DNA of 64,000 nt from Kribbella sp. ALI-6-A (GTDB taxonomy: Bacteria > Actinomycetota > Actinomycetes > Propionibacteriales > Kribbellaceae): contig NZ_MTQN01000010.1 in the NCBI RefSeq assembly GCF_001984195.1, positions 558,001 to 622,000 of the forward strand. Reading direction: 5' to 3'. Shown one piece after another: positions 10,208 to 29,790 of the stretch. The notes beneath the pieces are model-generated. The model did not search any database. It saw nothing but the letters and a program-made list of their open reading frames with translations, and had not been told where the DNA came from. The position numbers were made by a program, and so were the translations under genes. Position 1 is the first letter of the stretch; every line of letters begins with the position of its first letter.

Positions 10208-10336
10208 TGCCGAACCGCAGACAGTTTTCGTTAAGTCGGCACTGACCGCTGATCGGTCGTCACTGTGCGTGCGGGGGATCTGGCCTCCGCCGGCACAGCT
10301 TGCTGGACCTGTCAGCGGATTGCGCGCACCACGGAA

Positions 10337-11572: not shown

Positions 11573-11608
11573 GCCACAGACAGTGACACACGCCGCCGAC
11601 AATTTCTG

Positions 11609-12379
11609 TCAGCAGTCCATCGCGGGGAAGGTGTAGCCCTGGGCCTTGAGCAACGGGAGGACCTTGTCCAGAGCCGCGACGGTCTGGGCGCGATCGCCGC
11701 CGCCGTCGTGCAGCAGGACGATGTTGTGGCGGTGCGCGTGGGTCAAGATGTTGTTCGCGATCGCGTTGACGCCCGGCTTGGCCCAGTCCCGCGGATCGAC
11801 GTCCCAGAGCACCTGGGCCATCCCGGCGGCCTTGATCTCCGCGCGCACCTTCGCGTTCGTCGCGCCGTACGGCGGCCGGAAGCACTTGGACCGCGGACCG
11901 TCGAAGATCTCGTGGTGCCGCTTGGCCGCGGACAGCGCGGTGAGTTGCGGGTGGGTGATCGAGTGACTGCCGATGGTGTTGCCGTCGGCAAGGATCTGCG
12001 CGCGCAGTCCGGGGTGCTCGGCCTGGTTGCCGCCGAGCTGGAAGAAGGTCGCGTGGGCGCCGTGTTTCTTCAGCACCTGCAGGACTTTCGGCGTCCAGAC
12101 CGGGTCCGGGCCGTCGTCGAAGCTGAAGAAGAGCACCTTCTTGTTGCCGGCGACAAGCGCTGCGGTCGGGTCGGCGACCGGCGTACCGGGCGTGTGGTCG
12201 GCAGTCTTCGGCGGCGTCGTGGTCGGCGTGACGAGCGGCGGCGCCGAGCCCGTCGTACTGCTGGAGGCGGCGGTCGGTTTGGGTGCAGCGGAATGTCCCA
12301 GTGCGACGGCGAACAGGCCGCCGAGTACCAGTACTGCGGCAGCGGCGGTGCCGAAAACGGCAGCAAGCTTTCGGGACAT
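11609..12379 (-). CDS. Exported polysaccharide deacetylase (NodB domain)
   Basis: The 256-residue protein has an N-terminal signal or anchor (about 7-28), a Ser/Thr/Pro linker (about 35-70) and a NodB domain. Catalytic and metal residues are visible: SFDDGPDP with Asp88 and Asp89, HSITH with His139 and His143, and RPPYG at 168-172. It should remove acetyl groups from cell-wall or extracellular glycans using a divalent metal. The spacing to rmuC (36 bases) and shared strand suggest co-transcription. Confidence 0.92.
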   Translation of the reverse strand: MSRKLAAVFGTAAAAVLVLGGLFAVALGHSAAPKPTAASSSTTGSAPPLVTPTTTPPKTADHTPGTPVADPTAALVAGNKKVLFFSFDDGPDPVWTPKVLQVLKKHGAHATFFQLGGNQAEHPGLRAQILADGNTIGSHSITHPQLTALSAAKRHHEIFDGPRSKCFRPPYGATNAKVRAEIKAAGMAQVLWDVDPRDWAKPGVNAIANNILTHAHRHNIVLLHDGGGDRAQTVAALDKVLPLLKAQGYTFPAMDC

Positions 12380-12601
12380 GATGCTCCCTCACGAATCAGG
12401 CGGATGGTCCCCAGTCGCTCCCCCTCAGGAGCTTCACCAGGGAGACGCGTCGATCGCCGCGGTGGTTGGCCTGCGCCGTGTTGCAAGGAGGTCTCGGTCG
12501 CTTCCGCGTCAAGCAACAACGGTGTGGTCACGCTTGGGCCGGATCGCTTGCCGCCTCGCCGGTGGGCCGGGTAGATCAACGGACAAGCGAGGGGAGACGC
12601 G

Positions 12602-13132
12602 ATGAACGTCAAGGTGGTCTTCGAGACCGAGCGGCTGGTGGTCCGTGACTGGGTCGACTCCGACGGTGACCGGGTCTTCGACATCTACCGGCGCTGGGAG
12701 GTCTCGCGGTGGCTCGGCGCGACCCCGCGCGCGATGACGGACCGGGACGCGGCGACCCGGACGATCGAACGGTGGAACGCGCGCAACACCGATCCCGTGC
12801 ACGGCGTGTGGGCGGTGGAGGAGAAGGCGACGGGAACGGTCGCGGGGACGGTGCTGCTGGTGCCGCTGCCGGAGCCGTCGGACGGCGGGCCGGCGCGGGG
12901 TGAGGTCGAGGTCGGGTGGCATTTTCATCCGGACGCGTGGGGGCGTGGGCTGGCGACGGAGTCGGCGCGGGGTGCGATCGCGCATGGGTTCAAGACGGGG
13001 GTGGGGGAGATCTACGCGGTCGTCCGGCCGGGCAACCAGGCGTCGCTCGCGGTCTGCCGGCGGCTGGGGATGCGGCCGCTCGGGCTGACGAAGCGGTGGT
13101 ACGACGCGGAGCTGGAGTCGTTCGTGATCTGA
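12602..13132 (+). CDS. GNAT N-acetyltransferase (RimJ/RimL type)
   Basis: The 176-residue protein has the RimJ/RimL arrangement: TERLVVRDWVDSDGDRVFDI at the start, VEVGWHFHPDAWGRGLATES as the acetyl-CoA-binding motif (about residues 101-120), and IYAVVRPGNQASLAVCRRLG near the end. It acetylates an amine, either a protein N-terminus or a small molecule; the substrate is not predictable. It is divergent from the deacetylase. The 220 bases between them show no other gene. Confidence 0.88.
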   Translation: MNVKVVFETERLVVRDWVDSDGDRVFDIYRRWEVSRWLGATPRAMTDRDAATRTIERWNARNTDPVHGVWAVEEKATGTVAGTVLLVPLPEPSDGGPARGEVEVGWHFHPDAWGRGLATESARGAIAHGFKTGVGEIYAVVRPGNQASLAVCRRLGMRPLGLTKRWYDAELESFVI

Positions 13133-13142
13133 GCCACGGCGT

Positions 13143-13225
13143 GGGTACGGCGTACGGGTGGGGCGGGGGTGCGGCGTGCGAGGCTGCGGGTACGGCGTAC
13201 GGAACGGCGCGGCACGGCGTACGGG
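13143..13225. repeat. Short GTACGGCGTACGG repeats before ychF
   Basis: GGGTACGGCGTACGG occurs at 13143-13157 and again at 13188-13202, and a shorter CACGGCGTACGGG at 13213-13225. Spacing is irregular (45 and about 25 bases). The stretch between the GNAT gene and ychF (13133-13294) is otherwise non-coding. The repeats could be a binding site or local slippage; nothing shows which. Confidence 0.4.
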
Positions 13226-13294
13226 CTCGGCCGGCGGGCGGCGTACCGGCTGTGGATTGGGGTCCGGCGCGGCGGGCGCGTACCCTTGGCGTCC

Positions 13295-14371
13295 GTGGCA
13301 CTCACCATCGGAATCGTCGGGCTCCCCAACGCGGGCAAGTCCACGCTCTTCAACGCGCTGACCAAGAACAACGTGCTCGCCGCGAACTACCCGTTCGCGA
13401 CGATCGAGCCCAACGTCGGCGTGGTGGGGGTGCCGGACGCGCGGCTGGGCAAGCTGGCCGAGATCTTCGGGTCGGCCAAGCAGCTGCCGGCGACCGTGCA
13501 GTTCGTGGACATCGCCGGCATCGTGCGCGGCGCATCGGAGGGTGAAGGGCTGGGCAACAAGTTCCTCAGCCACATCCGCGAGTCGGACGCGATCTGCCAG
13601 GTCACCCGGGTGTTCCGCGACGACGACGTCACCCACGTCGACGGCAAGGTCTCGCCGGCCGACGACATCTCCACGATCCAGACCGAGCTGATCCTGGCCG
13701 ACCTGCAGACCGTCGAGAAGGCGATCCCGCGGCTGGAGAAGGAGTCCCGGCTGAAGAAGGAGAGCGTCGCTGTCCTGGAGGCGGTCCGCGAGGCGCAGAA
13801 GCACCTCGAGGCCGGTACGCCGATCATCGCCACTGACGTGGACCGCGACGCGATCCGCGAGCTGATGCTGATGACCGCCAAGCCGTACCTGTTCGTCTTC
13901 AACTGCGACGCCGACGAACTGGCCGACGAGTCGCTCAAGCAGCAGATGCGCGACCTGGTCGCGCCGGCCGAGGCGATCTTCCTGGACGCCAAGTTCGAGG
14001 CCGAACTGGTCGAACTCGGCGACGAGGACGAGGCCCGCGAGATGCTCGCCGAGATGGGCGTCGAGGAGCCGGGTCTGGACGTGCTGGCCCGGGTCGGTTT
14101 CGAGACCCTGGGCCTGCAGACGTACCTGACCGCGGGCCCCAAGGAGTCCCGCGCCTGGACGATCAAGAAGGGCGCCACCGCCCCCGAGGCCGCCGGCGTC
14201 ATCCACACCGACTTCCAGCGCGGCTTCATCAAGGCCGAGATCGTCTCCTACGACGACCTCGTCGAGGCCGGCTCGATGGCCGCCGCCAAGTCCGCCGGCA
14301 AGGTCCGGATGGAAGGCAAGGACTACATCATGGCCGACGGCGACGTGGTCGAGTTCCGCTTCAACGTCTGA
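13295..14371 (+). CDS. ychF: Redox-regulated ATPase YchF (Obg family)
   Basis: GTG at 13295 gives 358 residues, the normal family length; an in-frame extension upstream is repeat-rich and not conserved. The P-loop GLPNAGKST is at residues 9-17, the Obg signature VDIAGIVRGASEGEGLGN follows, and a TGS domain forms the C-terminus ending VVEFRFNV. YchF hydrolyses ATP rather than GTP and binds ribosomes. The last 27 bases of the gene recur imperfectly at 14745-14771. Confidence 0.96.
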   Translation: MALTIGIVGLPNAGKSTLFNALTKNNVLAANYPFATIEPNVGVVGVPDARLGKLAEIFGSAKQLPATVQFVDIAGIVRGASEGEGLGNKFLSHIRESDAICQVTRVFRDDDVTHVDGKVSPADDISTIQTELILADLQTVEKAIPRLEKESRLKKESVAVLEAVREAQKHLEAGTPIIATDVDRDAIRELMLMTAKPYLFVFNCDADELADESLKQQMRDLVAPAEAIFLDAKFEAELVELGDEDEAREMLAEMGVEEPGLDVLARVGFETLGLQTYLTAGPKESRAWTIKKGATAPEAAGVIHTDFQRGFIKAEIVSYDDLVEAGSMAAAKSAGKVRMEGKDYIMADGDVVEFRFNV

Positions 14372-14385
14372 GCGGGTCGAACCAC

Positions 14386-14740
14386 ATGGCCCGGCGGTTG
14401 ATGTTCGTCCAGCTGAAATCGGGCTACGACATCGACCGCGGACCGTCCTGGATCGCTTGGCTGGACTTCAACAAGACGTGAAGACGGCGCGGGTCCACGG
14501 TCCGGAGCTGAGGCGGTTCCAGGGGTTCGACGCCAACTGGGTGCGGGTCCGCCGGGCGGGCTCCTCCGCGGGTGCTTCTACGACGTCGTGACGGGCGAGT
14601 GGTTCTGGTTGTCAGGACCGAAGCGCGACCGCACGGACCTCCGGTATGCGCCTGGGCCGCCGCACGTCGACGAAGATGCTCGTGAGGTCTATGAGGCGTT
14701 CCTGGATGGAGCACCGCTCCCGGGCCGGGAGGATGGATAA
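14386..14740 (+). pseudogene. Decayed small gene behind ychF
   Basis: ATG at 14386 starts MARRLMFVQLKSGYDIDRGP and stops at TGA 14479-14481. A one-base shift continues as KTARVHGPELRRFQGFDANW, and a second shift gives GCFYDVVTGEWFWLSGPKRD through to TAA at 14738-14740. Read across the two shifts it forms one plausible protein of about 118 residues with strong codon bias. I do not recognise the family. Two frameshifts make it inactive unless they are sequencing errors. Confidence 0.65.
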
Positions 14741-14744
14741 CGCC

Positions 14745-14771
14745 ATGGTGGAGTTCCGGTTCAACGCCTGA
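14745..14771 (+). repeat. Imperfect duplicate of the ychF 3' end
   Basis: These 27 bases, encoding MVEFRFNA and a stop, match the last 27 bases of ychF at 14345-14371 (VVEFRFNV and stop) at 23 of 27 positions. The decayed gene at 14386-14740 lies exactly between the two copies. This looks like a duplicated target or a trace of recombination that inserted the small gene behind ychF. Confidence 0.6.
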
Positions 14772-14863
14772 CTCAGCGGTAGGCGGCGATGTAGTGGAGC
14801 TCCGCTCAACTGGGAGTCGTGCCGGTTCACCTGACAACCGGTGGCTGACTCTAGGCTGGCCGA

Positions 14864-15211
14864 ATGATCCAGGCGATTGCCAACGACTCCGTGCGCTGGA
14901 CGGACCTGCGGTCGGTCGACATGCCGGTCCTGCGGAGCTTCGTGGTCCGCAACGCGGACTCCGGGCAGACCGTGAGCATGACCACCGAGTCCGTGGATGG
15001 CCGGTCACGACTGGAGATGACCTACGTGGGGGTGGTCGAACTCCAGGTGTCCTGGCCCGAATTCCCCGTTCCCGCGCAGTTGGACGTCGTCGACATCGCC
15101 GAGGTCGCTGCGCACCAGTTGGAGAACATCAACTATCGCGTCGCGGAGGGGTCAGGTTTCTTCGCCTTCTGGTGCAGCGATTTCATAGCTGTCGCGATCC
15201 GGGACAACTAG
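14864..15211 (+). CDS. Hypothetical protein, 115 residues
   Basis: I do not recognise a family. The frame has coding-type codon use and an ATG at 14864. The product is acidic, with predicted beta-strands (LRSFVVRNADSGQTVSMTTE) and an aromatic end (SGFFAFWCSDFIAVAIRDN). It has no signal peptide or membrane segment. It lies between the decayed gene and the vapBC pair in an accessory patch, so horizontal acquisition is possible. Confidence 0.6.
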   Translation: MIQAIANDSVRWTDLRSVDMPVLRSFVVRNADSGQTVSMTTESVDGRSRLEMTYVGVVELQVSWPEFPVPAQLDVVDIAEVAAHQLENINYRVAEGSGFFAFWCSDFIAVAIRDN

Positions 15212-15353
15212 CTTCCCGTCGGCATCGGTGAATCTGGATGCCGTGATGAGCCGGAGTTGCGGTGACGGCACCCATCACCTGGTCGGACAGTCGCCGAACT
15301 CGGCTTCAATGTCTGACGCCTGGCCCTCTGGGATGCTGTGGTGGCGAGGTCGC

Positions 15354-15746
15354 TCAGGCAGGCATGTCGACAGTCAGTCCGGCAGCCTGGGCGGCGTCGG
15401 CCAGGCGTTTGTCGTACGTGATGAACGACGTGAGCTGTGAGCGGACGCGAAGAGCCGTTGCCAAGTGAATGGCGTCCAGGCTCCGAACCGTCGCCGGCCT
15501 CACCGTCTGCGCCAGAATGCGAATCCCGGCGTCCAATTCCACCAACTCGATCAGGTCGAGGACCAGGTGAAGACGCGTGACGGCCGCCGGGGCATGGCGT
15601 GCCAGTGCCCGCGACGACTCGATTTCCGCCAGGACAGAACTCGTCCACCCGGTCTCCGCTCGTTCGTCGAGCCAGTGACGTAACGCCTCTGTCTCCGACT
15701 CCGCGTGGACGAGCTTCACGATCGCGGCCGAGTCGAGATAGATCAC
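15354..15746 (-). CDS. VapC-like PIN-domain toxin
   Basis: The 130-residue protein is a PIN-domain RNase. The acidic residues are present: Asp5 in IYLDSAAIVKL, Glu in LAEIESSRALARH, Asp in SLDAIHLATAL and Asp in FITYDKRLADAA. VapC toxins cut tRNA or rRNA and are held inactive by VapB. The start overlaps the antitoxin stop by four bases, so toxin translation is coupled to the antitoxin. Confidence 0.92.
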   Translation of the reverse strand: MIYLDSAAIVKLVHAESETEALRHWLDERAETGWTSSVLAEIESSRALARHAPAAVTRLHLVLDLIELVELDAGIRILAQTVRPATVRSLDAIHLATALRVRSQLTSFITYDKRLADAAQAAGLTVDMPA

Positions 15747-16025: not shown

Positions 16026-16706
16026 TCACGTCGAGGCGGTGTTGCTCTGGCGGCGAACGATTTCTGTGATCCACGCGGGCGCGTACGGCGACGTGCAGCC
16101 TGGGGGAGTCGGGTAGTCCTTGAGGACCTCGAGGCGTTCGCCGATGGCGAGGGCTCGGGCTCGGTGGTCGGGGTGGTCGATGCCGATCTGGGCGAGGGTG
16201 TGGTTCATCGCCCATTGCAGGCGGTCGGGGGCGGTCTTCATCTCCGCCTCGATGACGTCGAGGAGGCCGGGGAGGTCGAGGCCGTCGGGGTTCTTGGTGA
16301 CGCGTTCGGTGGTGAGGGCCCAGCCGGCGCTGGCGACGACGGGGTCGGGGTCGGCGAGCCAGGTCACGCGGAGGTCTTCGGCGTACGGGGTCTTCTTGAC
16401 GACGTAGTTCACGAGCCAGTCGTGGACTTTGGGGACGCGCGCCTCGCGGAGCATGGTGTCGAGTTCGTCGAGCTTGAAGTTCTTCGGGCGGCAGACGAGG
16501 AGTGCGAGGAGGCGCGCGGCGGTGTCGCCGGTTTTCCAGAGGTCGCGCGAGAGGTCGTGCTGGGTCTTCAGGCGCTTGGCGATCGCGCGCAGCTTGCTGA
16601 GGTTCACGCCGTGGTCGTCGCCGTGGCGCTCGTTCACCGCACGCGCTTTCGGGTCTTCGAGCGCGGCGAGTTCGGCCATCAGCTCGGCCACCGTCGTCTC
16701 TGCCAC
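16026..16706 (-). CDS. DNA alkylation repair protein (HEAT-like)
   Basis: The 226-residue protein matches the DNA alkylation repair (AlkD-like) family of HEAT-repeat proteins: VNLSKLRAIAKRLKTQHDLS near the N-terminus, LVNYVVKKTPYAEDL in the middle and LQWAMNHTLAQIGIDHPDHR near the end. AlkD-type enzymes remove N3- and N7-alkylpurines without base flipping. Many relatives are uncharacterised, so glycosylase activity is a family-level inference. It ends 17 bases after the vapBC operator. Confidence 0.85.
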   Translation of the reverse strand: MAETTVAELMAELAALEDPKARAVNERHGDDHGVNLSKLRAIAKRLKTQHDLSRDLWKTGDTAARLLALLVCRPKNFKLDELDTMLREARVPKVHDWLVNYVVKKTPYAEDLRVTWLADPDPVVASAGWALTTERVTKNPDGLDLPGLLDVIEAEMKTAPDRLQWAMNHTLAQIGIDHPDHRARALAIGERLEVLKDYPTPPGCTSPYAPAWITEIVRRQSNTAST

Positions 16707-16753: not shown

Positions 16754-17245
16754 TCAGTCCAGGTCAAACGTGTCATCGTCGATCAGGCCGGCGATGAAAC
16801 TGGGGAAGTCAGCGGCGAGCGGGGTGATCTGGTAGTCCCGCTCCTGGTCGACGTGAACAACCGATGGTTCGTCGCCGTGGCGGTAGTCGAGGGCGATCAG
16901 GTCGTGGCCGGCTGAGGGGCAGTCGGCGAAGTACAGGCCGATGTCCGGGTAGCCCCACACGGTGATCCAGAAGGTGTTGCCGGCCGGGCCGCAGAGGCTG
17001 AACGGGGCCGTCCGGCCGATGGCGGCGATCGAGGTGATGCCGACATGGTCCTCGGCCCAGGTGGTGGGAGTCGGGGCCGGGTGGGCGTTGCGGGCGACGT
17101 GGCCGCCGTTGTGCAGACGGGACAAGGCGATGTACGCCGGGGGAAGGCGGAGGCCGAGCTCGGCCTCGATCGAGGCGATCAACGCATCGGTGGGTGGGGG
17201 CTCGAAGGCGGGAGCGTCGGTGAACGGGGACGGAAGCCTCGGCAT
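16754..17245 (-). CDS. SMI1/KNR4 family protein
   Basis: The 163-residue protein has SMI1/KNR4 features: IASIEAELGLRLPPAYIALS near the N-terminus, LHNGGH, and VVHVDQERDYQITPLAADFP with a C-terminal aromatic/acidic helix (FPSFIAGLIDDD). In bacteria the fold is common as an immunity protein against secreted toxins. No toxin gene is adjacent, so it may be an orphan immunity protein or have a housekeeping role. Confidence 0.8.
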   Translation of the reverse strand: MPRLPSPFTDAPAFEPPPTDALIASIEAELGLRLPPAYIALSRLHNGGHVARNAHPAPTPTTWAEDHVGITSIAAIGRTAPFSLCGPAGNTFWITVWGYPDIGLYFADCPSAGHDLIALDYRHGDEPSVVHVDQERDYQITPLAADFPSFIAGLIDDDTFDLD

Positions 17246-18348: not shown

Positions 18349-20403
18349 TCACAGTAGGTCGGCGAGGAAATGGCCGGCCCTCACAGCGCCGTCGGTCGGG
18401 ACCGGGAGGTAGTCGACCGGATCGGTGAGCGCCTTCGCGACGGCTTCGGCGAGGCGGTCGGGGTCGGCTGCCTCGGAGTAGTCGAGGCGGTGGCCGGCGC
18501 GGTGGCGGTCGAGGCGGGCGGTGACGTGGAAGTTCTGCTCGAAGTGGTGCTGGAGTGGGATGTAGACGAACGGGACGCGCTGGGCGGTCAGTTCCATACA
18601 GGTGGTCAGGCCGCCCTGGGTGATCGCGACGTCGGCCTTGCCGAGTTCGAGGTGGAGGTCGGGGAGGTAGCCGTGCAGCCGTACGCCGGGCGGGTGCGGT
18701 AGCGACGACGGGTCGATGCGCGGGCCGGTGACGACGTCGAACTCGATGCCTGGGATCAGGCGCCGGATCGCCGGTACGGCGTCGAGGACCCGGTGCAACA
18801 AGCTGACGCCGACGCCCGAACCGCCGACCGTCACCAGGCAGCGCGGTGGTGACGCAGCCGACCGCGAGCCGATCGGCGCGAACCCCGTGATGTACCCCGT
18901 GAACATATAGTTCTGCCGAGTCCACTCGCGAATCCCCGGCAGCCCCGGCCCGAAAGACTCCTCGACCACATCCTCGGGATCACCCACGAACAACGAGCAA
19001 TCCCGCAACCGCCGATAACGCGACCGTTGCGTCAGCATCTCCGCGTTGTAGTCCGCCGTCAGTGCAGCCTCATCAGGCCCGCCGTCCGGCATCGGCAACC
19101 AGCCGACGAAGTCGGTCAGCCAGGCGTAAGCAAAGCGTTTCAGCTCAGGGTTCTCGTGCAGGAAGTAGTCGACCTCCCACGCCTCGTCGCCGATCACCAG
19201 GTCGTAGTGCCGGTCCTCGACCACGTCGCTGAAGGTGAGGAAGTTCGCGACCAGGATCTCGTCCATCCGCCGGAGCGCCTGAAAGGCGTGCAAGTCGTGC
19301 TCGCCCGCCTCGTGTTCCACATGCGCCGACTCACTGAGCAACCAGTCCGACGCCGGGTGCACGGCCTCACCCGCGTCCGCCAGCACGCGCGTCACAGGAT
19401 GCTGCGCGAGCCACTCGATCTCCACCTCCGGATATAGCGAGCGCAACTCCCGCGCGATCGCGAGATCTCGCCGAGCATGGCCGAGCCCGATCGGCGACGA
19501 GAGATAGAGCACCCGCCGAGTCCGACGAGCGGCCCGCACCCACGTACGACGTACCGGTTGCGGCATCACCTGCGAGGCGAACTGACGCAGCAGGTGATTG
19601 ACGACCACCGGATCGCGCGCCTGCGGCGCGTGCCCGCCGCCCACGACCGTGACAAGCGATCCACCTGTCAGCTCAGCAAGCCGGGCCCCCTCCGCCGGCG
19701 GGCGGATCTGATCGTCCGATCCGTGCACGACCAGCACCGGACACGACACCTCGGCGAAGCGTGCCGGGTCCAGGTGCTGCGAGCGCGCGGCCTCGGTGTC
19801 GGCCAGCAGCGACGGGCTGATCTCGTGCCCCCACCCGATCGCGTCCTCGACCTGCTTGCTGGAGTGCGGTTCCGGGAACATCCGCCCGAAAAAGAACGCC
19901 AGGAAGTCGTCGTACCCGCCCTCGAGCCAGTAGTACCTGTTGTACTTCGCCCATCCCTCGCTCGTCGCATGCCGCTCGTCCCAGGTCCACCGGGTGCGTT
20001 CCTCGAGCATCGGCGTCAGCCTGGTCGCCGAGCCGATACAGACCACGCCCAGCACCCGCGACGGCTGCCGCAGCGCGACCTCCAGCGCCCACGGACAGCC
20101 GCGGGAGAACCCGACCAGCACGCAGTACGGCGTACTGGTCGCGTCCAGCACCGCGATCGTGTCGGCGACGTACTCCGCGTCCGTGTACGCCGCCGCGCCG
20201 GCCGGGCGGTCCGACGTGCCCGAGCCGCGGCCGTCGAAGCTGATCACCCGGAAATGCCTGGCCAGATAGGGGATCTGGGCCTTCCAGACCCGCGAGGGCA
20301 CGATCGACCAGGTCGGCAGCAGGACCAGCGTCGGGCCCTCGCCGTCCACGCGGTAGTGGATCGTCACGCCGTTGCGGGTGACCGTGCCCTCCATGCTGAT
20401 CAC
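18349..20403 (-). CDS. Alpha/beta-hydrolase fused to glycosyltransferase
   Basis: The 684-residue protein joins two enzymes. Residues 1 to about 280 are an alpha/beta hydrolase: oxyanion region LLPTWS, nucleophile Ser100 in GFSRG, acid Asp230 or Asp231 in HGSDDQ and His258 in GGGHAP. Residues from about 297 are a GT-B glycosyltransferase of the UDPGT/MurG type, with a glycine-rich start (LYLSSPIGLGHARRDL) and donor-binding end (AITQGGLTTCMELTAQRVPF, then PLQHHFEQNF). The gene follows the methyltransferase by four bases. It may tailor a secondary metabolite; the substrate is unknown. Confidence 0.85.
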   Translation of the reverse strand: MISMEGTVTRNGVTIHYRVDGEGPTLVLLPTWSIVPSRVWKAQIPYLARHFRVISFDGRGSGTSDRPAGAAAYTDAEYVADTIAVLDATSTPYCVLVGFSRGCPWALEVALRQPSRVLGVVCIGSATRLTPMLEERTRWTWDERHATSEGWAKYNRYYWLEGGYDDFLAFFFGRMFPEPHSSKQVEDAIGWGHEISPSLLADTEAARSQHLDPARFAEVSCPVLVVHGSDDQIRPPAEGARLAELTGGSLVTVVGGGHAPQARDPVVVNHLLRQFASQVMPQPVRRTWVRAARRTRRVLYLSSPIGLGHARRDLAIARELRSLYPEVEIEWLAQHPVTRVLADAGEAVHPASDWLLSESAHVEHEAGEHDLHAFQALRRMDEILVANFLTFSDVVEDRHYDLVIGDEAWEVDYFLHENPELKRFAYAWLTDFVGWLPMPDGGPDEAALTADYNAEMLTQRSRYRRLRDCSLFVGDPEDVVEESFGPGLPGIREWTRQNYMFTGYITGFAPIGSRSAASPPRCLVTVGGSGVGVSLLHRVLDAVPAIRRLIPGIEFDVVTGPRIDPSSLPHPPGVRLHGYLPDLHLELGKADVAITQGGLTTCMELTAQRVPFVYIPLQHHFEQNFHVTARLDRHRAGHRLDYSEAADPDRLAEAVAKALTDPVDYLPVPTDGAVRAGHFLADLL

Positions 20404-20407
20404 TGTC

Positions 20408-21481
20408 TCAGGGGCGAACTTCGTAGACCAGGTTGAACGGCGTCTGCGCCGCGACCCGGAACCGGGTGAAACCGGCCGCGGTCGTCACGTCCCGGATCCG
20501 CGCCGGACCGGCCTGGGTGCCGAGCCCGAGCCCGACCTCCTGCGACAGCGACGCCGGCGTGCACAGCAGCGTGGAGAAGCCGTAGTACGCGCGCCCGACC
20601 GGGTTCAGGTTGTCCTCGACGTGGTCGCCGGCCATCGGCTCGACCACCATCCAGGTGCCGTCGGGGGCGAGCGACTCGCGCACCCGGCGGGCGGCGCCGA
20701 CCGGGTCGCCCATGTCGTGCAGGGCGTCGAAGGTCGTCACCAGGTCGTAGTTCTCACCGCCGTACGACGTGGCGCCGGCCACCTCGAACTCGGCCTCGAC
20801 GCCCGCGTCGGCGGCCCGCTGCCGGGCAGTCGCGATCGACTCGGGATGGTAGTCGGAGCCGCGGAAGGTGGACCGCGGGAACGCCTGGGCCATCAGGATC
20901 GTGGAGGCGCCGTGGCCGCAGCCGATGTCGGCGACCTTCGCTCCACGCTGCAGCTTGGCCACGACGCCGTCGAGCGCGGGCAGCCAGCTGTCGACGAGGT
21001 TCGCGTGGTAGCTGGGGCGGAAGAAGCGCTCGCAGCCGAGGTGGACGTCCGCGTCGTGCTCGTGCCAGCCGATGCCGGCGCCGCTGCGGGCCGCGTCGAC
21101 CATCCGGTCGGTGTCCTGGACGGTGCCGAGCGCGATCTGGAAGAAGCCGGGCAGGAACGCCGGGCTGTTCTCGTCGGTGAGCGCGACGGTCTGCTCGGGC
21201 GGCAGCGTGTACCGCCCGGTAGCCGGGTCGTAGGTGACGAAACCGCCGGCTGCTTGGGCGTTGAGCCACTCGCGGACGTAGCGCTCGTGGGTGCCGGTGC
21301 GGTCGGCCAGCTCGGCCGGGGTGAGCCCGCCGGCGCCGGCCAGCGTGCGGTAGTAGCCGAGCTTGTCGCCCATCACGACGAGCGCCGCGTTGAGTGTCGC
21401 GCCGACCTCGCCGACGGCCTGGAACACGAACTGCATGAGCTTGTCGCCGTCGACGGTGACGGGCTGGTCGATGGTGGTCAT
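20408..21481 (-). CDS. SAM-dependent methyltransferase with winged-helix N-domain
   Basis: The 357-residue protein has an N-terminal helical/winged-helix dimerisation part (LTPAELADRTGTHERYVREW, about residues 53-72) and a class I methyltransferase domain with motif I VADIGCGHGAST at about 183-194. This layout is that of O-methyltransferase-like proteins with a regulator-type N-domain. It leads a two-gene operon with the hydrolase-glycosyltransferase fusion. It is divergent from the LAL regulator, 100 bases away, which may control it. Confidence 0.88.
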   Translation of the reverse strand: MTTIDQPVTVDGDKLMQFVFQAVGEVGATLNAALVVMGDKLGYYRTLAGAGGLTPAELADRTGTHERYVREWLNAQAAGGFVTYDPATGRYTLPPEQTVALTDENSPAFLPGFFQIALGTVQDTDRMVDAARSGAGIGWHEHDADVHLGCERFFRPSYHANLVDSWLPALDGVVAKLQRGAKVADIGCGHGASTILMAQAFPRSTFRGSDYHPESIATARQRAADAGVEAEFEVAGATSYGGENYDLVTTFDALHDMGDPVGAARRVRESLAPDGTWMVVEPMAGDHVEDNLNPVGRAYYGFSTLLCTPASLSQEVGLGLGTQAGPARIRDVTTAAGFTRFRVAAQTPFNLVYEVRP

Positions 21482-21583
21482 GGTTTCCCCTCCCTGGGAT
21501 TGCTGTCCTCGCTGACGCTAGGAGCGGGCGATCGGGCATCGCATCAGGTGGGCCCCCTGGTCCCGGGGTTCTAGACTCCGAAG

Positions 21584-24274
21584 ATGCTGATCGGGCGGGA
21601 GGCCGAGCGGCGGGCGATCGGGCAGTTGGTCGCGGGGGCGCGGGTGGGCACCAGTGGAGTGCTGCTGATCACCGGGGAGCCGGGGATCGGCAAGACCGCC
21701 CTCCTGGACCAGGCCGCGGCCGAGTCCGCCGGCCTCCGCCTGCTTCGGGCGAGCGGAACCGAGACCGAACACGAGGTTCCGTTCGGTGGTTTGCTGCAGT
21801 TGCTCCGTCCGGCGCTGGGTGAGCTGGACCGGATCCCTTCACCACAACGGGATGCGCTGGCCGCGGCATTGGCCCTCACCACCACCACTGATCCCGCCGG
21901 ACGGTTCGCCGTCGGCGCGGCGACGCTCAGCCTGTTGTGCCGGTACGCCGAACAAGCACCCGTGGCGGTCCTGGTCGACGACGCGCAGTGGATCGACCGG
22001 CCGTCGGCGGAGGCGTTGGTGTTCGCGGCCCGGCGGTTGGTGGCGGATCCGATCGTGCTGCTGGTGGCGGCGCGCGCCGGGGAGTCGCATCCGTTGGCCG
22101 AGGCGGACCTGCCGCTGCTGCGGCTCGACGGACTCGGGCTCGACGACGCGCGCGAGCTGGTCGGCCGGCGTGCGACGGATGTGGCGCAGGTGCATCGGAT
22201 GGTGGCCGGGAACCCACTGGCTCTGCTGGAACTGACCCGCGATCCGAACAGGCTGCAGCGCGTCCCGCCCGGCGCCCCGATTCCCGTGCCGCGCCTGCTG
22301 GCCGAGGCCTTCGCCGCGCAGGCGCACCGCTTGAGCGAGTCGGCCCGCATCGCCTTGCTGGTGGCGGCTTCCGACGACGGCGAGCTCGGTGTGGTCGCCC
22401 GCGTGTGCGAGCAGTTCGGCGTGGACGTCAACGCGTTGGGTGAGGCGGAGGAGGCCGGGCTCGTCCGGATCGTCGACGGGCGGGTGGAGTTCCGGCATCC
22501 GTTGGTTCGCTCGTCCGTGTACGCCGACGCGGCACCGGCCGTACGCCGTACTGTCCACCAGGCGATCGCCGGTGTGCTGGCCGACCACGACCGGCGGATC
22601 TGGCATCTGTCCGAAGCCGTGCTCGGGTCGGACGGCGATGTCGCGGCAGGACTGGAGGCTGTCGCCGGGCACGCGGTCGAGCGGGGTGCGCACGCGGTCG
22701 CGGCGACGGCGTTGGAGCGAGCGGCACGGCTGACCGACGATACGTCCGAGCAAGGTCGCCGATTGGTCGCGGCGGGGGAGGCGGCCTGGTTCGCCGGCTT
22801 GCCCGACCGGGCAGAGGAACTGCTCGTGGACGCGCTGCGCCGGGACCTGTCGCCCGCGGTCGGCCTGCGCGCCCAGGAGCTGCGCGGGGACATCGCCGTC
22901 AGGTGCGGCTCACCCGGTCAGGCGCGCGACATCCTCCTGGCGGCAGCCGCGAGCGCCGATGACCTGCCGACCCGGATCAGGCTGCTGAGCGACGTTGTGA
23001 ACGCCTGCTTCCACGTCGGCGACACTGCCACGGCCGTGCAGGTCGCCGAGGATCTCGACGCGATACTGCCGGACGTCGACGTGCCGGAGAGCCGCTTGCT
23101 CGGCCTGCTCGCGAGTGGGGTCGCCCGCGTGCTGGCGGGCCGTGGTGGCAGCGACCAGATCCGTACGGCGGTCGCGTTGTCCCGGGCCGCTGGTGCTCTG
23201 AAGCTCGAACGACGCCACCAGGTGTGGGTGGTGGTGGCGCCGCTGTTCCTGCGCGAACGCGACGCCGGCCGCGAGGTGATCGAGCAGGTCCTGCGCGACA
23301 GCCGGGACGGCGTCGCGCTCGGGTTGCTGCCGGCAGTCCTGTTCCACCTGGCCCGCGACCAGGCGACCACCGATCGCTGGGCCGACGCGGCCACGTCGTA
23401 CGACGAGGGCATCCGGTTGTCCCGGGAGACCGGTCAGACCACCGAGCTGGCGATCAATCTCGCCGGCCAGGCCTGGTTGTCCGCGCGCCGGGGCCGGGTC
23501 GCCGATTGCCACGCCCAGGCCGCCGAGGCGATCACGATCTGCACCGAGCGGGAGATTCGGCTCGGGCTGGCCTGGTCGTCGTTCGCGCTGGGCGATCTGG
23601 CGCTGGGGTGTGGTGATCCGGCCGCGGCGGTTGCGCCGTACGAGCGGTTGGTCGAGTTGCTGACGAGCGGCGGCACGCTCGATCCGGATCTGTCGCCCGC
23701 GCCGGAGCTCGTCGAGGTCTACCTCCGTCTCGGCCGGACGGATGACGCCGTCAGCACGGCCGACATCTTCGCCGGCCAGGCGGCCAGCAAGGGTCTGCCC
23801 TGGTCGCTTGCGCGGGCGGCGCGGGTGCGCGGGCTGGTCGACGCCGACGAGGATGCCTTCACCGAGGCGCTGCGGTTGCACGAGCGGACGCCCGACCTGT
23901 TCGAAACCGCCCGGACGCAACTGGTCTACGGCTCCTGGCTTCGGCGGGTACGGCGACGCGTCGACGCGCGGGTCCAGCTGCGCAAGGCCGTGGAGGTGTT
24001 CGACCATCTCGGCGCTCCCACCTGGGCCGACCAGGCTGCCGCGGAACTGAACGCCACCGGCGAAACCGCCCGTCGCCGCGAACCCAGTAGCGCCGACGAC
24101 CTCACGCCGCAGGAACGCCAAGTCGCGCAGCTGCTGGCCGCCGGTCACAGCACTCGCGAAGCCGCCGCCAAACTTTTCCTCAGCCCGAAGACGGTCGAGT
24201 ACCACCTCCGCAAGGTCTACACGAAGCTCGGCGTCCACAGCCGCGCCGAGCTCGCTGACCAGCTCACGGAGTGA
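21584..24274 (+). CDS. LAL-type LuxR regulator with AAA ATPase
   Basis: The 896-residue protein has an N-terminal ATPase (Walker A GEPGIGKT, residues 31-38; Walker B VAVLVDDAQWID), a long helical TPR-like middle and a C-terminal LuxR HTH (LTPQERQVAQLLAAGHSTRE, then FLSPKTVEYHLRKVYTKLGV). LAL proteins are large ATP-binding activators, often controlling secondary metabolism or sugar use. It sits between the methyltransferase/fusion operon on one side and a P450 on the other, so it is a likely local regulator. Confidence 0.93.
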   Translation: MLIGREAERRAIGQLVAGARVGTSGVLLITGEPGIGKTALLDQAAAESAGLRLLRASGTETEHEVPFGGLLQLLRPALGELDRIPSPQRDALAAALALTTTTDPAGRFAVGAATLSLLCRYAEQAPVAVLVDDAQWIDRPSAEALVFAARRLVADPIVLLVAARAGESHPLAEADLPLLRLDGLGLDDARELVGRRATDVAQVHRMVAGNPLALLELTRDPNRLQRVPPGAPIPVPRLLAEAFAAQAHRLSESARIALLVAASDDGELGVVARVCEQFGVDVNALGEAEEAGLVRIVDGRVEFRHPLVRSSVYADAAPAVRRTVHQAIAGVLADHDRRIWHLSEAVLGSDGDVAAGLEAVAGHAVERGAHAVAATALERAARLTDDTSEQGRRLVAAGEAAWFAGLPDRAEELLVDALRRDLSPAVGLRAQELRGDIAVRCGSPGQARDILLAAAASADDLPTRIRLLSDVVNACFHVGDTATAVQVAEDLDAILPDVDVPESRLLGLLASGVARVLAGRGGSDQIRTAVALSRAAGALKLERRHQVWVVVAPLFLRERDAGREVIEQVLRDSRDGVALGLLPAVLFHLARDQATTDRWADAATSYDEGIRLSRETGQTTELAINLAGQAWLSARRGRVADCHAQAAEAITICTEREIRLGLAWSSFALGDLALGCGDPAAAVAPYERLVELLTSGGTLDPDLSPAPELVEVYLRLGRTDDAVSTADIFAGQAASKGLPWSLARAARVRGLVDADEDAFTEALRLHERTPDLFETARTQLVYGSWLRRVRRRVDARVQLRKAVEVFDHLGAPTWADQAAAELNATGETARRREPSSADDLTPQERQVAQLLAAGHSTREAAAKLFLSPKTVEYHLRKVYTKLGVHSRAELADQLTE

Positions 24275-24384
24275 GCAGCTCCAGCCGATCGACCGTCGGC
24301 TGCCACGCCGGCAAGTGGTTGGCGGCCTTCCAGTCGAAGACCAGTCGCCGGAGCGGTCGACCCCGCGGAACGTACGGTGGTGAG

Positions 24385-25569
24385 GTGACTTCGCCATTCA
24401 CCGAGACCAGCGGTCAGGCTCGCCACAAGGGGTTCGCGGAGCTGGCCGCTCAGGGACCGTTGCAGTACCTGACTTTGTTCACCGGAGTGCCGGTCTGGCT
24501 CGTCACCGGGTACGCCGAAGCGCGGGAGTTGCTGGCTCATCCGGACGTCGTCAGGTCGCCGCTGGACGGACCGCACCGCGACCACGTGTTCGACAGCCTG
24601 GTCAATTCGATGGACCGGCACATGCTCAGCGCCAATCCGCCCGACCACACCCGGCTGCGCAAGCTCGTGTCGGGAGCGTTCACGCGCCGGCGGATCGAGC
24701 TGCTCGAGCCGCGAATCCGCGAGATCGCATCCGGGCTGCTCGACGAGATGGCCGCGGCGGACGGGCCGGTCGACCTGGTCAACGCCTACAGCTATCCACT
24801 GCCGATCACCGTCATCTCCGAACTGCTCGGCATCCCGGCCATCCGCCGCGACGACTTCCGCCGCTGGTCCTCGGTGGTGGTGAACGCGTCCGTGCACCCG
24901 CCCGAGGTGTACGTCGAGAGCGCGCTCGCGATGGTCGAGTTCATCCATGAGCTGATCGAGGACCGCCGGGTGGTCGCGCCGTCCGACGACCTGCTCTCCG
25001 CGCTGATCGCGGCCCGCGACGGCGGCGACCGGCTGAGCACCGACGAGCTCACCTCGATGGTCTTCCTGCTGCTCGCCGCCGGCCACGAGACCACGGTCAG
25101 CCTGATCACCAACGGCGTACACGCGCTGCTCACCCACCCCGACCAACTCGCGCTGCTCAAGGCCGAGCCCGAGCGGCTCCCGGCGGCCGTCGAGGAACTG
25201 ATCCGGTACGACGGCCCGCTGCAGGCCGCGATCCCGTACGTCGCGGCGGCGCCGATCGAGGTCGCCGGGCGGACGATCCGTACCGGCGAGGTGATCGTGT
25301 TCGCGCTGACCGCGGCCAACCGTGACGACGCGCGGTTCGGGAACGGAGCCGAGCTCGACATCACCCGGACCGAGAACCAGCACCTCGGCTTCGGACACGG
25401 CATCCACCACTGCCTGGGCGCGCCGCTGGCCCGGCTCGAGGGCCGGATCGCGCTCGGCCTGCTGTTCGACCGGTTCCCCGGCCTGCGCCTGGCCGAACCG
25501 GGCGCCGATCCGCACCGTCATCCGGGCCTGTTGATGAACGGTATTTCCGAGCTCCCGGTGCTGCTGTGA
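24385..25569 (+). CDS. Cytochrome P450
   Basis: From GTG at 24385 the product has 394 residues, normal for bacterial P450s. The I-helix AAGHETTVS, the ExxR in EELIRYDGP and the heme loop FGHGIHHCLGAPLARLEG, with the ligand Cys at about 343, are all intact. A longer frame begins at a GTG overlapping the LAL stop, but its 38 extra residues are Arg/Ser-rich and not P450-like. It should hydroxylate a hydrophobic substrate using a ferredoxin and reductase encoded elsewhere (fdxA lies near 53.7 kb). Confidence 0.93.
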   Translation: MTSPFTETSGQARHKGFAELAAQGPLQYLTLFTGVPVWLVTGYAEARELLAHPDVVRSPLDGPHRDHVFDSLVNSMDRHMLSANPPDHTRLRKLVSGAFTRRRIELLEPRIREIASGLLDEMAAADGPVDLVNAYSYPLPITVISELLGIPAIRRDDFRRWSSVVVNASVHPPEVYVESALAMVEFIHELIEDRRVVAPSDDLLSALIAARDGGDRLSTDELTSMVFLLLAAGHETTVSLITNGVHALLTHPDQLALLKAEPERLPAAVEELIRYDGPLQAAIPYVAAAPIEVAGRTIRTGEVIVFALTAANRDDARFGNGAELDITRTENQHLGFGHGIHHCLGAPLARLEGRIALGLLFDRFPGLRLAEPGADPHRHPGLLMNGISELPVLL

Positions 25570-28435: not shown

Positions 28436-29707
28436 TCAGCGCCGGTACTTCGCGTCGACGTAGACCAGGGCGTCGCCGACGGCGCGTTCGGCGCCGGACG
28501 GGCGGTTGACCAGGGCACCGTTGACGGCCATCGCGGTGGAGCCGCCGCCGTCGAGGTTCATCGCGTTGTGCAGGCCGAGTGCCTTGGCCAGGGCGGCGGA
28601 CTCGCCCATCGTCGTTCCGACACTGGTGGTCTGCCGGCCGTCGACGGTGACGAACACGAGCTTGCCGTCCTTGGTGGTGCCGGCGATGGTCCGCGGGTTG
28701 CGGTCGTTGAAGCTGCCGCCGGTCGGCTGCTCGACGACCTCGCCGTCGCGGACCAGCAGGCCGCGGCCGGTCACGCCGTACAGGCTGTTGCGGAGGGCAA
28801 CCTTCTTGCCCTGCTCGTCGCGCACGGCCAGCGAGGTGCTGACACAGCCACCGGCGAGGGTCTGGAAGACGGCGACGGTGTCGTGGCCGGTGGCCTGCAC
28901 CGAGGTCTGGCCGGCGGTCAGCGCCGTACCGCGGGTGGTGGCGGTGCGCACGACGCAGCCGCGCTGGTCGAGCACGACCTCGATCCCGGCACCGGCCGGC
29001 GTCGAGGCGGCGAACTCGGGCGTGAACAGGACGACGTCACCGGCGGCGGTGCAGTCGGTCTGGTCGGCCAGTGCCGTACAGGCGGCGGGCACGACCGGCG
29101 GGTGGTTGACGAACTCCAGCGGCAGCACCGCCTCGGTCTTCTTGTTCTTGAGGCTGCCGGTCCAGCTCAGGTGCCCGATCAGCGCCTTGCTGGTCTTCGC
29201 GTCGACCACGAAGTTGGTCTCGGCCGGGTCGGTCAGCGGCTCGCTCAGCAGCTTGCCGTCGAAGATGCCCAGGCCGACCGGGTCACCGGGGTACTGCTGG
29301 CTGGCGGTGAAGGTGAAGAACGACGCGTTCACGCCGGCCAGCGCGCCGGCGCCGCGGACCAGGTCGGTGGTCTTCTCGGTCCGGGCCAGGTCCGGGCCGT
29401 ACGTCGCCTTGACGTGGCCCTTGGCCTCGTCGGGATCGACGGTGAGCACGTTGATCGACCACGGACCACGCGTGGTGGTGTTGATCTGGTCCGCCGGCGC
29501 CGGCTCGGTGCCGCGCACGATGCGGGTCAGACTGACGCCGTCGGTCAGGGTCTGGGAACTGCGGGTCTCGGTGAGGTTCTGGTCGCCCAGCGGCAGCGTC
29601 AGGCTGCCGGCGGCGCTGGCGCCGGCCGGGGCGATGCTGAGACCGGCGATCGCGGCCAGCAGGACAGCACCGGCCGCGGCGACGCGCGGTCGTACGGAAG
29701 AAGTCAT
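28436..29707 (-). CDS. Secreted phosphodiester glycosidase (NAGPA domain)
   Basis: From ATG at 29707 the protein has 423 residues with a Sec signal peptide (about 1-33, ending ASAAG). The C-terminal half has the NAGPA/DUF2233 hallmarks GVNASFFTF, TIAGTTKDGKLVFVTVDGRQ and NLDGGGSTAM. These enzymes cleave phosphodiester-linked sugars, probably in the envelope. Two Cys pairs in the middle suggest disulfides. Confidence 0.9.
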   Translation of the reverse strand: MTSSVRPRVAAAGAVLLAAIAGLSIAPAGASAAGSLTLPLGDQNLTETRSSQTLTDGVSLTRIVRGTEPAPADQINTTTRGPWSINVLTVDPDEAKGHVKATYGPDLARTEKTTDLVRGAGALAGVNASFFTFTASQQYPGDPVGLGIFDGKLLSEPLTDPAETNFVVDAKTSKALIGHLSWTGSLKNKKTEAVLPLEFVNHPPVVPAACTALADQTDCTAAGDVVLFTPEFAASTPAGAGIEVVLDQRGCVVRTATTRGTALTAGQTSVQATGHDTVAVFQTLAGGCVSTSLAVRDEQGKKVALRNSLYGVTGRGLLVRDGEVVEQPTGGSFNDRNPRTIAGTTKDGKLVFVTVDGRQTTSVGTTMGESAALAKALGLHNAMNLDGGGSTAMAVNGALVNRPSGAERAVGDALVYVDAKYRR

Positions 29708-29790
29708 GCCGTGCACTCAACTCGACCGGAGAAAACTTTCGGCCGATTTGGTTGACCGGTAAGCAACTTCCGCATGACGCTTCGGGGGCG

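Follow-up and report, generated by a model that had tools for sequence, protein, structure and literature searches.

A hydrolase–glycosyltransferase fusion protein in a recurrent candidate modification cassette with a LAL regulator and a methyltransferase

Results

The comparison of genomes showed that the predicted genes of a LAL regulator, a SAM-dependent methyltransferase (MT) and a protein joining an alpha/beta-hydrolase to a glycosyltransferase (GT) travel together in many genomes, and that the divergent promoter region they have in common contains a conserved element. We tentatively read them as a candidate modification cassette, in which the LAL regulator would switch on enzymes that hydrolyze, glycosylate and methylate one and the same small molecule. 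The genes were analyzed in a window of 64,000 nucleotides from Kribbella sp. ALI-6-A, which is the whole stretch of DNA considered here (Table 1). The positions given for the fusion, MT, LAL and P450 open reading frames (ORFs) in a preliminary description of this DNA agreed with the ORF list.

Table 1. Coordinates of the cassette genes, their domains and neighboring features in the window
Feature	Position	Strand	Description	Basis
Hydrolase–GT fusion	18349-20403	-	684 aa, GTG start	ORF list
C-terminal GT-B glycosyltransferase domain	18349-19548	-	Residues 286-684 and stop codon	Pfam, AlphaFold, fold matches, invariant residues
N-terminal alpha/beta-hydrolase domain	19555-20403	-	Residues 1-283; S100, D231, H258	Pfam, triad conservation, fold matches
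MT	20408-21481	-	SAM-dependent methyltransferase, Rv2258c/TnmJ type, 357 aa; in the same direction as the fusion and upstream of it	Pfam, PDB sequence matches
CCTAGCGTC box	21514-21522	-	Putative -10 region of the MT–fusion promoter; 17 bases downstream of the AGGGGGCCCACCTGATGCG element	
AGGGGGCCCACCTGATGCG inverted-repeat element	21540-21558	-	Conserved putative LAL operator between LAL and MT	50 spacers, genome scan, PWM scan
LAL regulator	21584-24274	+	896 aa; AAA_16, TPR, LuxR-type GerE HTH; divergent from MT	Pfam
Cytochrome P450	24385-25569	+	Likely start; ORF 24271-25569 (432 aa); occasional companion, outside the cassette core	
Gene with NAGPA phosphodiester-glycosidase domain	28436-29716		Beyond DedA	Pfam

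Domains of the fusion protein

The proposal that one protein joins a Ser-His-Asp alpha/beta hydrolase to a GT-B glycosyltransferase was borne out by the Pfam matches to Abhydrolase_1 (residues 37–261, 4.2e-21) and Glyco_tran_28_C (residues 574–662, 1.3e-9) in the same frame, and by the triad of S100, D231 and H258. A full-length match without internal stops was found in 17 of 97 genomes of the genus and order, the window's own counted in, and the fusion was readable as a full-length frame in 61 of 74 public loci, so that it is not a sequencing artefact. The remaining 13 public loci, which were partial, split, frame-broken or beyond the read-off limits, were left out of the fusion alignment. 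The AlphaFold2 model of the whole protein had a mean pLDDT of 94.5 and a pTM of 0.93. Since an ATG at 20394, three codons inside the GTG, is an equally possible start, the gap of four bases reported between MT and the fusion holds for the GTG start but is not fixed. No paper describing this fusion was found in the open-licence literature searched.

From sequence and model, the N-terminal domain is classed as an esterase/lactonase-like hydrolase with a Ser or Cys nucleophile. It scored 76.2 bits against the Abhydrolase_1 cut-off of 25.8, and across 62 aligned fusions D231 and H258 were present in every sequence, while residue 100 was Ser in 55 sequences and Cys in the other 7. The Cys forms made up one clade plus L082 in the fusion alignment and the hydrolase tree; this tree of 73 rows excluded hydrolases at or below 150 bits or spanning fewer than 230 residues, most of those of Burkholderiales among them, and is therefore silent on the excluded ones. 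The fold neighbors were Est816, aryl esterases and the enol-lactonase 2xua; the superposition on Est816 (5egn_A), which is AHL-degrading according to its entry title, gave a Z score of 32.8 and an rmsd of 2.0 over 250 aligned residues at 28% identity. The matches listed span a broad fold family of esterases, lactonases, haloperoxidases, epoxide hydrolases and C–C hydrolases. They included no glycosidase fold, an absence that excludes nothing, and none of the NCBIfam cut-offs was reached among the best 25 of 31 matches, including those of the macrolide esterases NF052610 (48.2 vs 420 bits) and EstT (38.3 vs 450 bits) and of the 3-oxoadipate enol-lactonase PcaD, TIGR02427 (83.7 vs 255.85 bits).

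On the same kind of evidence, the C-terminal domain is GT1-like and nearest to macrolide and natural-product glycosyltransferases. Modeled by itself it reached a pLDDT of 94.1, and the closest folds were 2iya (a macrolide GT, which we take to be OleI), YojK, CalG1 and YjiC. The GT-B fold resembled 2iya and CalG1 along the entire domain (2iya_B: Foldseek E 5e-15; VIA Z 28.3, rmsd 3.3, 336 aligned residues, 21% identity). Residues G306–H309, R312–D313 and E622–Q623, the last presumably the donor-site pair, were invariant across 62 sequences. Because the score against NCBIfam TIGR01426 (MGT) was far under its cut-off (34.8 vs 260 bits), the domain is labeled GT1-like and not MGT. RhlB was not among the fold matches listed for it, which excludes nothing.

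Comparison of the public loci further showed that the predicted GT nearly always retains a hydrolase partner, either fused or encoded by an adjacent gene. Separate neighboring genes, in the order GT–hydrolase, which is swapped relative to the fusion, were found at L089, L090, L104, L121 and L165. Four of these five stand-alone hydrolases have a Cys nucleophile, and the pairs of L104, a locus of Microbacterium yannicii, and L165 follow an MT gene with LAL divergent. In the GT tree, which left out 4 of 88 loci as partial, the split rows fell among fused forms; the label "fused" was distance-based in this tree, and thus also covers the frame-broken L066, L110 and L115.

Methyltransferase

The MT was assigned to the Rv2258c-like type by its HTH_65 (60.2 vs 24.1 bits) and methyltransferase (57.7 vs 27 bits) domains in Pfam, and its sequence matched TnmJ (8g5s, 1.4e-55, residues 20–357) and 5f8c (1.6e-45) in the PDB. 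TnmJ is an enzyme of the tiancimycin pathway, to a step of which it is only assigned in the excerpts of PMC9464397. FmtB (PMC5426589), considered as a hint to fatty-acid methylation by this family, was dropped, because its models use 3OCJ and 1WZN, and the sole mention of Rv2258c in the excerpts of that paper is in the reference list.

Recurrence of the cassette

Among 38 genomes of the genus, LAL and MT occupied the identical 29, and were adjacent and divergent in all of them. The fusion lay downstream of MT in 14 of the 29, and the other 15 kept LAL–MT without it, which suggests that MT has some role apart from the fusion. Of the 74 public loci, 33 had MT at a distance of no more than 2 kb from the fusion and 29 had LAL within 4 kb of it; 27 had both. 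There was no MT within 2 kb at 41 loci, 15 of which are from Burkholderiales, and no LAL nearby at 45, some contigs in both sets ending too early; among the 51 loci whose contigs extend far enough to either side, 27 were without MT. Neither gene is thus obligatory for the fusion. A fusion unrelated to its neighbors in most genomes, which would have spoken against the cassette, is not what is seen for MT and LAL in Actinomycetota, although across all loci it is a near thing. A TetR-cluster gene stood beside the fusion in 12 of the 41 loci without MT. Separately, a DUF1326 gene cluster was observed close to five fusion loci.

The arrangement with LAL divergent from MT–fusion was found, in the same gene order outside the genus, in many Actinomycetota and also in Chloroflexota MAGs. 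Outside Actinomycetota it was seen on MAG contigs only, mostly of similarly named Chloroflexota bins, where binning errors are possible. A Chloroflexi bin (L115) and a Deltaproteobacteria bin (L116) had nearly identical hydrolases and identical spacers, so at least one of the two labels is doubtful, and the Deltaproteobacteria label was not used. The idea of a small tailoring cassette is kept for the LAL–MT–fusion core, whose gene order and promoter element are found again beyond the genus, but not for the P450.

LAL regulator and the LAL–MT spacer

That the fusion and MT face a LAL regulator, as first described, was confirmed by the divergent arrangement and by the domains AAA_16 (65.3 vs 32.6 bits), TPR_12 (40.4 vs 30.1 bits) and GerE (63.1 vs 23.5 bits) in a protein of the expected length of about 900 aa. 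The inverted repeat in the LAL–MT spacer is probably the LAL operator, as judged from its conservation. Its 19-base seed, which came from the same data, was matched at 15 or more bases in 40 of 50 LAL–MT spacers, while the best of 1,000 shuffles was 14. These spacers, 28 of which come from one genus, are the survivors of filters that removed the genus genome G031, incomplete LAL starts, spacers outside 20–500 bases, and L124, L125 and L134. Boxes resembling CCTAGCGTC were present by eye, unscored, in many of the spacers.

A position weight matrix (PWM), built without 4 of the 50 spacers, scored at least 16 bits at 26 of 29 LAL loci versus 2 of 45 loci where LAL was not seen, among the 74 public loci. 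Of these two, L055 is on a contig that ends first, and the match of L102 lies within the fusion coding region. Nine LAL loci outside the training set reached at least 24 bits (L046, L090, L109, L124, L125, L134, L144, L165 and L179), and the three without a match at 16 bits (L061, L065 and L080) have what look by eye like shortened variants. The element was rejected as a regulon finder. Besides the copy in the window, the genome has one more exact match (G000:C7:2042455-2042473), which is taken as chance, since it sits inside an ORF resembling a TetR-family gene by eye, and of 21 genomic matches 19 had two mismatches, many of which are probably noise because the reversed-pattern control also yielded 7.

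The P450 and the surroundings of the cassette

For the P450 (Pfam 1.4e-25), the true start is probably not 24271 but an in-frame GTG at 24385, since most relatives in the genus have shorter ORFs of about 393–403 aa and align only from residue ~30–40 onward; the gene would then not overlap the LAL stop. The P450 adjoins LAL in 17 of 29 LAL-positive genomes of the genus. On the other hand, it occupies the same flank without LAL, MT or the fusion in 6 of 38 genomes, is missing from 11 of 14 fusion-bearing ones, and is near the fusion at only 2 of 74 public loci. It is thus better described as a gene of the flanking locus that can occur apart from the cassette than as the cassette member that it was initially taken for. 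The 29 LAL–MT loci of the genus carried both P450 and fusion in 3 cases, the fusion only in 11, the P450 only in 14 and neither in 1 (Fisher p 1e-4). These counts are not independent, as the fusion state changes just 3 times on the flank-gene tree, and functional exclusion between the two is not claimed.

No core synthase was seen among the ten flanking window genes scanned with Pfam, two of which had no Pfam match, in agreement with the preliminary description. The base composition gave no signal of horizontal transfer, with a GC content of 0.67–0.74 between 18 and 26 kb against 0.65–0.72 around it, and no step.

Discussion

If the cassette acts on one small molecule, LAL would sense a metabolite and, via the inverted repeat, turn on MT–fusion and probably itself. 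The hydrolase domain would open an ester, lactone or enol-lactone, or transfer an acyl group, by its Ser/Cys-His-Asp triad. The GT1-like domain would next cap the same molecule, plausibly at the freshly released hydroxyl, with sugar from a housekeeping NDP-sugar, while MT would methylate the same scaffold, and the neighboring P450 may contribute an oxidation in a few strains. Most likely, the net outcome would be that a lactone- or polyketide-like compound, imported or made elsewhere in the genome, is inactivated or tailored. A bolder version, to which we give rather little credence, is that the fusion is a bifunctional, possibly channeling enzyme for lactone or ester opening followed by immediate glycosylation. 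The hydrolase partner of its GT would have been swapped in evolution, Ser type for Cys type, and un-fused, and the whole would be a cassette for inducible detoxification or resistance under a single conserved LAL operator in Actinomycetota and, judging by MAGs, Chloroflexota.

It is likewise doubtful that the cassette is biosynthetic, with the hydrolase as an acyltransferase or lactone former whose product the GT glycosylates to a small glycolipid or signal. RhlA, which has an alpha/beta-hydrolase fold, and RhlB, a GT1, make rhamnolipid, and the fusion has the same pairing of fold classes. The Cys nucleophile of some fusions and of most stand-alone partners would suit acyl transfer at least equally well, LAL regulators often drive biosynthesis, and genes of OsmC, a flavin oxidoreductase and a P450 precede the split pair of L090. 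However, RhlA was not named among the best 60 of 231 PDB and best 25 of 31 NCBIfam matches, which is weak evidence, the best hydrolase matches listed were esterases, an enol-lactonase and macrolide esterases, and no acyl-supply family recurred in the first 25 of 53 families from a tally of 50 chosen neighbors, not all.

A role in the envelope, in which the LAL-controlled cassette would modify a lipid of the cell wall or a component of the surface, seems improbable. The Mycolicibacterium locus L052 has two extra elements, which precede two glycine-rich genes whose N-termini look signal-like, but this is limited to L052, as the extra copies of L057 and L115 are not ahead of such genes, and the solved relatives closest to the cassette enzymes work on small molecules. 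We consider it quite improbable that the four window genes, the P450 among them, form a fixed cluster, a reading that would be compatible with the chemistry ones: the place of the P450 beside LAL in the genus and the 44% identical P450 adjoining the split pair of L090 speak for it, but the P450 occurs on the same flank without the other genes and is absent near most fusions. The glycosylate/deglycosylate device first proposed is very improbable, even with two catalytic domains in a single protein, a GT fold like that of 2iya and the NAGPA-domain gene in the window, because the partner is an esterase/lactonase-type hydrolase with a Ser or Cys nucleophile, a type that is not known to cleave O-glycosides, and no glycosidase family was among the Pfam and NCBIfam matches listed for the fusion, MT, LAL and P450.

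If the reading as a small-molecule modification cassette is true, it would be a compact, portable and ligand-switched enzyme set that removes or decorates lactone- or polyketide-type molecules. The operator could then be used as a reporter for the inducer, which would likely be the substrate. The enzyme architecture would be an undescribed one, and the cassette might expose a way of inactivating antibiotics or signals that has so far gone unrecognised in soil bacteria.

Comparison with known systems

The window MT has the HTH_65 and methyltransferase domains of the Rv2258c/TnmJ enzymes; unlike in the TnmJ setting, it is paired with a LAL regulator, and no enediyne or other synthase is among the ten flanking genes scanned. 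The RhlA–RhlB system also combines an alpha/beta-hydrolase-fold enzyme with a GT1, although neither is named among the matches listed for the fusion. In OleI/OleR self-resistance a macrolide is glycosylated inside the cell and deglycosylated outside; the GT fold is of the same kind as in the fusion, whose partner domain is of the esterase/lactonase type and not a glycosidase. The esterases and lactonases (Est816, enol-lactonase and EstT-type macrolide esterases) have their fold and triad in common with the window hydrolase, which, unlike them, is fused to a GT and has relatives in which Ser is partly replaced by Cys. Similarly, the macrolide and antibiotic GT1 enzymes (2iya, CalG1 and YjiC/YojK) have the same GT-B fold with Glyco_tran_28_C, while the window GT differs from them in having a hydrolase partner.

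Results

The fusion and its conservation

The four open reading frames of the small tailoring cassette proposed in the preliminary description were found where it had placed them. One 684-aa frame encodes the whole fusion, with an alpha/beta hydrolase at about residues 6–280 and a GT-B glycosyltransferase (GT) at about residues 290–684. This two-domain protein, as first described, is real and old, with full-length fused relatives in the genus and the order. They were present in 13 of 37 same-genus genomes other than the window's own and in 3 of 59 same-order genomes; a phylum-wide draw gave matches with E <= 1e-40 in 32 of 396 genomes, a count which includes the window's own and some matches that are not full length. 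A scan of GTDB species genomes yielded 74 fusion loci (the public loci) in Actinomycetota, Chloroflexota, Pseudomonadota and other phyla, with identity down to 41%. One tblastn piece of the Deinococcus sp. QL22 plasmid copy (L120, 8350–11091) covered 97% of the fusion query; this copy is annotated as two genes, for an alpha/beta hydrolase and a glycosyltransferase, with a TetR gene upstream.

The alignment of 62 fusions showed that residue 100 was Ser in 55 and Cys in 7, that D231 and H258 of the hydrolase domain were invariant, and that G306-L307-G308-H309, R312-D313, D406-E407-A408-W409 and E622-Q623 of the GT were kept in all 62. Compared with the window fusion, the GT was the better-conserved half in 61 of 61 comparisons (median 57% versus 44% for the hydrolase).

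Features of the window around the fusion
Feature	Position	Strand	Remark
PIN-domain gene	15354-15746		3' side of fusion
DNA alkylation repair enzyme	16026-16706		3' side of fusion
SMI1/KNR4 (SUKH) protein	16754-17245		3' side of fusion
Fusion	18349-20403	-	hydrolase + GT
Methyltransferase (MT)	20408-21481	-	Rv2258c/TnmJ type
Conserved element	21540-21558		putative LAL operator
LAL regulator	21584-24274	+	
P450	to 25569	+	
NAGPA phosphodiester-glycosidase domain gene	28436-29716		PF09992, 1.5e-35; past DedA and GNAT-like gene, ~2.9 kb from P450

The locus in the genus

The LAL (at least 63% identity) and MT (at least 77%) genes occupied the same 29 of 38 genus genomes and were adjacent and divergent in all 29, while the fusion was found in 14 of these, always directly after the MT. 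Homologues of the P450 occurred in 23 of 38 genomes, adjoining the LAL in 17 and standing beside DedA in the other six (G003, G014, G018, G025, G032 and G034), where LAL, MT and fusion were all absent from the locus. The order N17 (GNAT-like)–'PDA'–DedA–[P450]–[LAL-MT-(fusion)]–ArsR–AHSA1 was kept in most genus genomes concerned; 'PDA', our own label, gave no match in the Pfam scan. A tree built from three flank proteins of 34 genus genomes required a minimum of 6 state changes for the P450, 5 each for LAL and MT, and 3 for the fusion. Because it occurs beside DedA without the cassette and has its own state changes, the P450 is best seen as a gene of the flanking locus that can be separated from the cassette, and its proposed membership of the cassette is not upheld; the full four-gene set was present in 3 of 38 genomes.

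In one genome (L122 in G035), ArsR-AHSA1 separates DedA from LAL rather than following the fusion, which places the cassette on the other side of this pair. In another (L135, G060:C2:88000-107000), C-terminal pieces of the GT (query residues 252–401, 53%) and the MT (residues 306–357, 63%) adjoin on opposite strands at 9685–10392; judged from these pieces, the cassette seems to have decayed here.

Neighbours across the public loci

Of the 74 public loci, 27 had both LAL and MT next to the fusion (MT counted singly in 33, LAL in 29). The isolates were of Kribbella, Mycolicibacterium, Mycobacterium, Lentzea, Actinophytocola, Modestobacter, Nocardioides, Ornithinimicrobium and Microbacterium; MAGs of Actinomycetota and Chloroflexota also had this arrangement, which beyond Actinomycetota was seen, among the 74 loci, in MAG contigs only. 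Flanks of at least 1.5 kb upstream and 1.3 kb downstream were available for 51 loci, of which 24 had MT and 20 had LAL; the latter count is affected because a 1.5-kb flank often stops short of the LAL. In six loci the MT was linked to the fusion with no LAL seen, either before it (L055, whose contig ends early, L058, L072 and L081) or after it (L092 and L095, from Variovorax). Hence, the MT–fusion link is frequent, but it is not universal.

TetR_N was the commonest family (13 of 50 chosen fusion neighbours), and members of one TetR-type cluster, two of them checked individually, adjoined the fusion in 14 loci; this cluster was present in 12 of 41 public loci without MT. Since L106 and L112 have BTAD-domain regulators ahead of the fusion, the regulators vary among loci.

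Other genes recurred nearby. One cluster, whose tested member (L062) is DUF1326, was found near the fusion in L053, L062, L075, L088 and L110, with a partner from a second cluster in four of the five (PpoB2 in L062). In L088, from a Thermomicrobiaceae MAG, a gene combining a TIR domain with an alpha/beta hydrolase (11100–12356) is convergent with the adjoining fusion. L115 (Chloroflexi bin) and L116 (Deltaproteobacteria bin) do not differ in their LAL-MT spacers and hardly differ in their hydrolases; one of the two bin labels is therefore probably wrong.

A shared promoter element

Filtering left 50 LAL-MT spacers for comparison, 28 of them from the genus and 22 from other sources, and ACYAGGTGGGGCACCTGATGCG or a recognisable variant was present in nearly all of them. 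The fullest copies contain the inverted repeat AGGTG-GGG-CACCT, and a CCTA...TC box often follows about 17 bases past the element, before the MT. Scored without gaps against the 19-base seed, the spacers had best matches of 10–19, with at least 15 in 40 of 50, while 1,000 shuffles averaged 10.1 and never exceeded 14; the seed was derived from the same spacers on which it was scored, and a PWM from 46 training sites is therefore the stronger test. Nine untrained LAL loci (L046, L090, L109, L124, L125, L134, L144, L165 and L179) had PWM matches of 24.4–36.5. Among LAL-bearing public loci, 26 of 29 had a match of at least 16 bits and 25 of at least 20 bits; L061, L065 and L080 had none at 16 bits. 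Of the 45 public loci with no LAL seen, two reached 16 bits: L055 (24.2), whose contig stops before any LAL could show, and L102 (16.6), where the match is within the fusion coding region. In L109, where the MT is absent, a LAL-like gene and the fusion directly flank the element. The sole other exact match in the window's own genome lies in a coding frame. Position and co-occurrence suggest that the element is a putative binding site of LAL.

Additional copies occur downstream of the fusion in L057, L115 and, twice, L052 (Mycolicibacterium austroafricanum). The latter, at 12117 and 14039, precede glycine-rich genes with signal-like N-termini (12278–13885 and 14132–15529) just downstream of the fusion; the second had no Pfam match.

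Split forms and a proposed hydrolase exchange

In L089, L090, L104, L121 and L165 the GT and hydrolase are separate adjoining genes in reversed order, GT first; in L104 (Microbacterium yannicii) and L165 the pair follows the MT, with LAL divergent. The four split forms included in the GT tree sit among fused actinobacterial forms, requiring at least two changes. The stand-alone hydrolases have a Cys nucleophile in L090, L104, L121 and L165 and Ser in L089, with Asp and His in all. Most Cys types form one clade of the hydrolase tree (SH-aLRT 96), uniting three stand-alone partners with six of seven Cys-type fused domains, while L082 falls elsewhere. In L070 and L079 a stand-alone Ser-type hydrolase directly precedes a fusion with a Cys-type domain. 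From these trees, made by a quick method, we read that the hydrolase partner may have been replaced while the GT stayed, which would argue that both activities serve one pathway.

In L121 (G019:C24:18500-38400) the split pair is followed by an aldo/keto reductase, and the same genome also holds a fused cassette (L128).

Discussion

At the variant loci the regulators are of LAL, TetR or BTAD type; L090 carries P450, flavin oxidoreductase and OsmC genes, and L109 an aromatic-ring hydroxylase. This gene content fits natural-product tailoring or inactivation. We tentatively favour, at slightly less than an even chance, a scheme in which the hydrolase domain would hydrolyse or ring-open a molecule, the GT would next glycosylate that same molecule, methylation by the MT would accompany these steps, and LAL would control the whole set. 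The main alternative, which we consider doubtful, is a biosynthetic pair in which the hydrolase fold serves as an acyltransferase alongside the GT. The glycosylate/deglycosylate device first speculated for the fusion is unlikely, because alpha/beta hydrolases of this esterase/lactonase class are not known to cleave glycosides; a gene with a NAGPA phosphodiester-glycosidase domain does, however, lie further out in the window, at 28436–29716.

A search of open-licence papers found no publication on the fusion, the proposed hydrolase swap or the LAL-MT-fusion cassette with its element; every enzyme family involved is already known. Among solved proteins the MT is closest to TnmJ (1.4e-55), followed by 5f8c (1.6e-45), which we take to be the Rv2258c structure. 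AlphaFold2 predicted the whole fusion with pLDDT 94.5 and pTM 0.93, and the GT domain alone with pLDDT 94.1. The fold matches of these models leave the substrate of either domain unfixed. The GT model matches YojK (Z 28.3, rmsd 3.5, 337 aligned), the macrolide GT 2iya (Z 28.3, rmsd 3.3, 336 aligned), CalG1 (Z 27.6) and YjiC (Z 25.9). The hydrolase model matches aryl esterases, the enol-lactonase 2xua (Z 31.3) and Est816 (Z 32.8, rmsd 2.0, 250 aligned), which is AHL-degrading according to its entry title.
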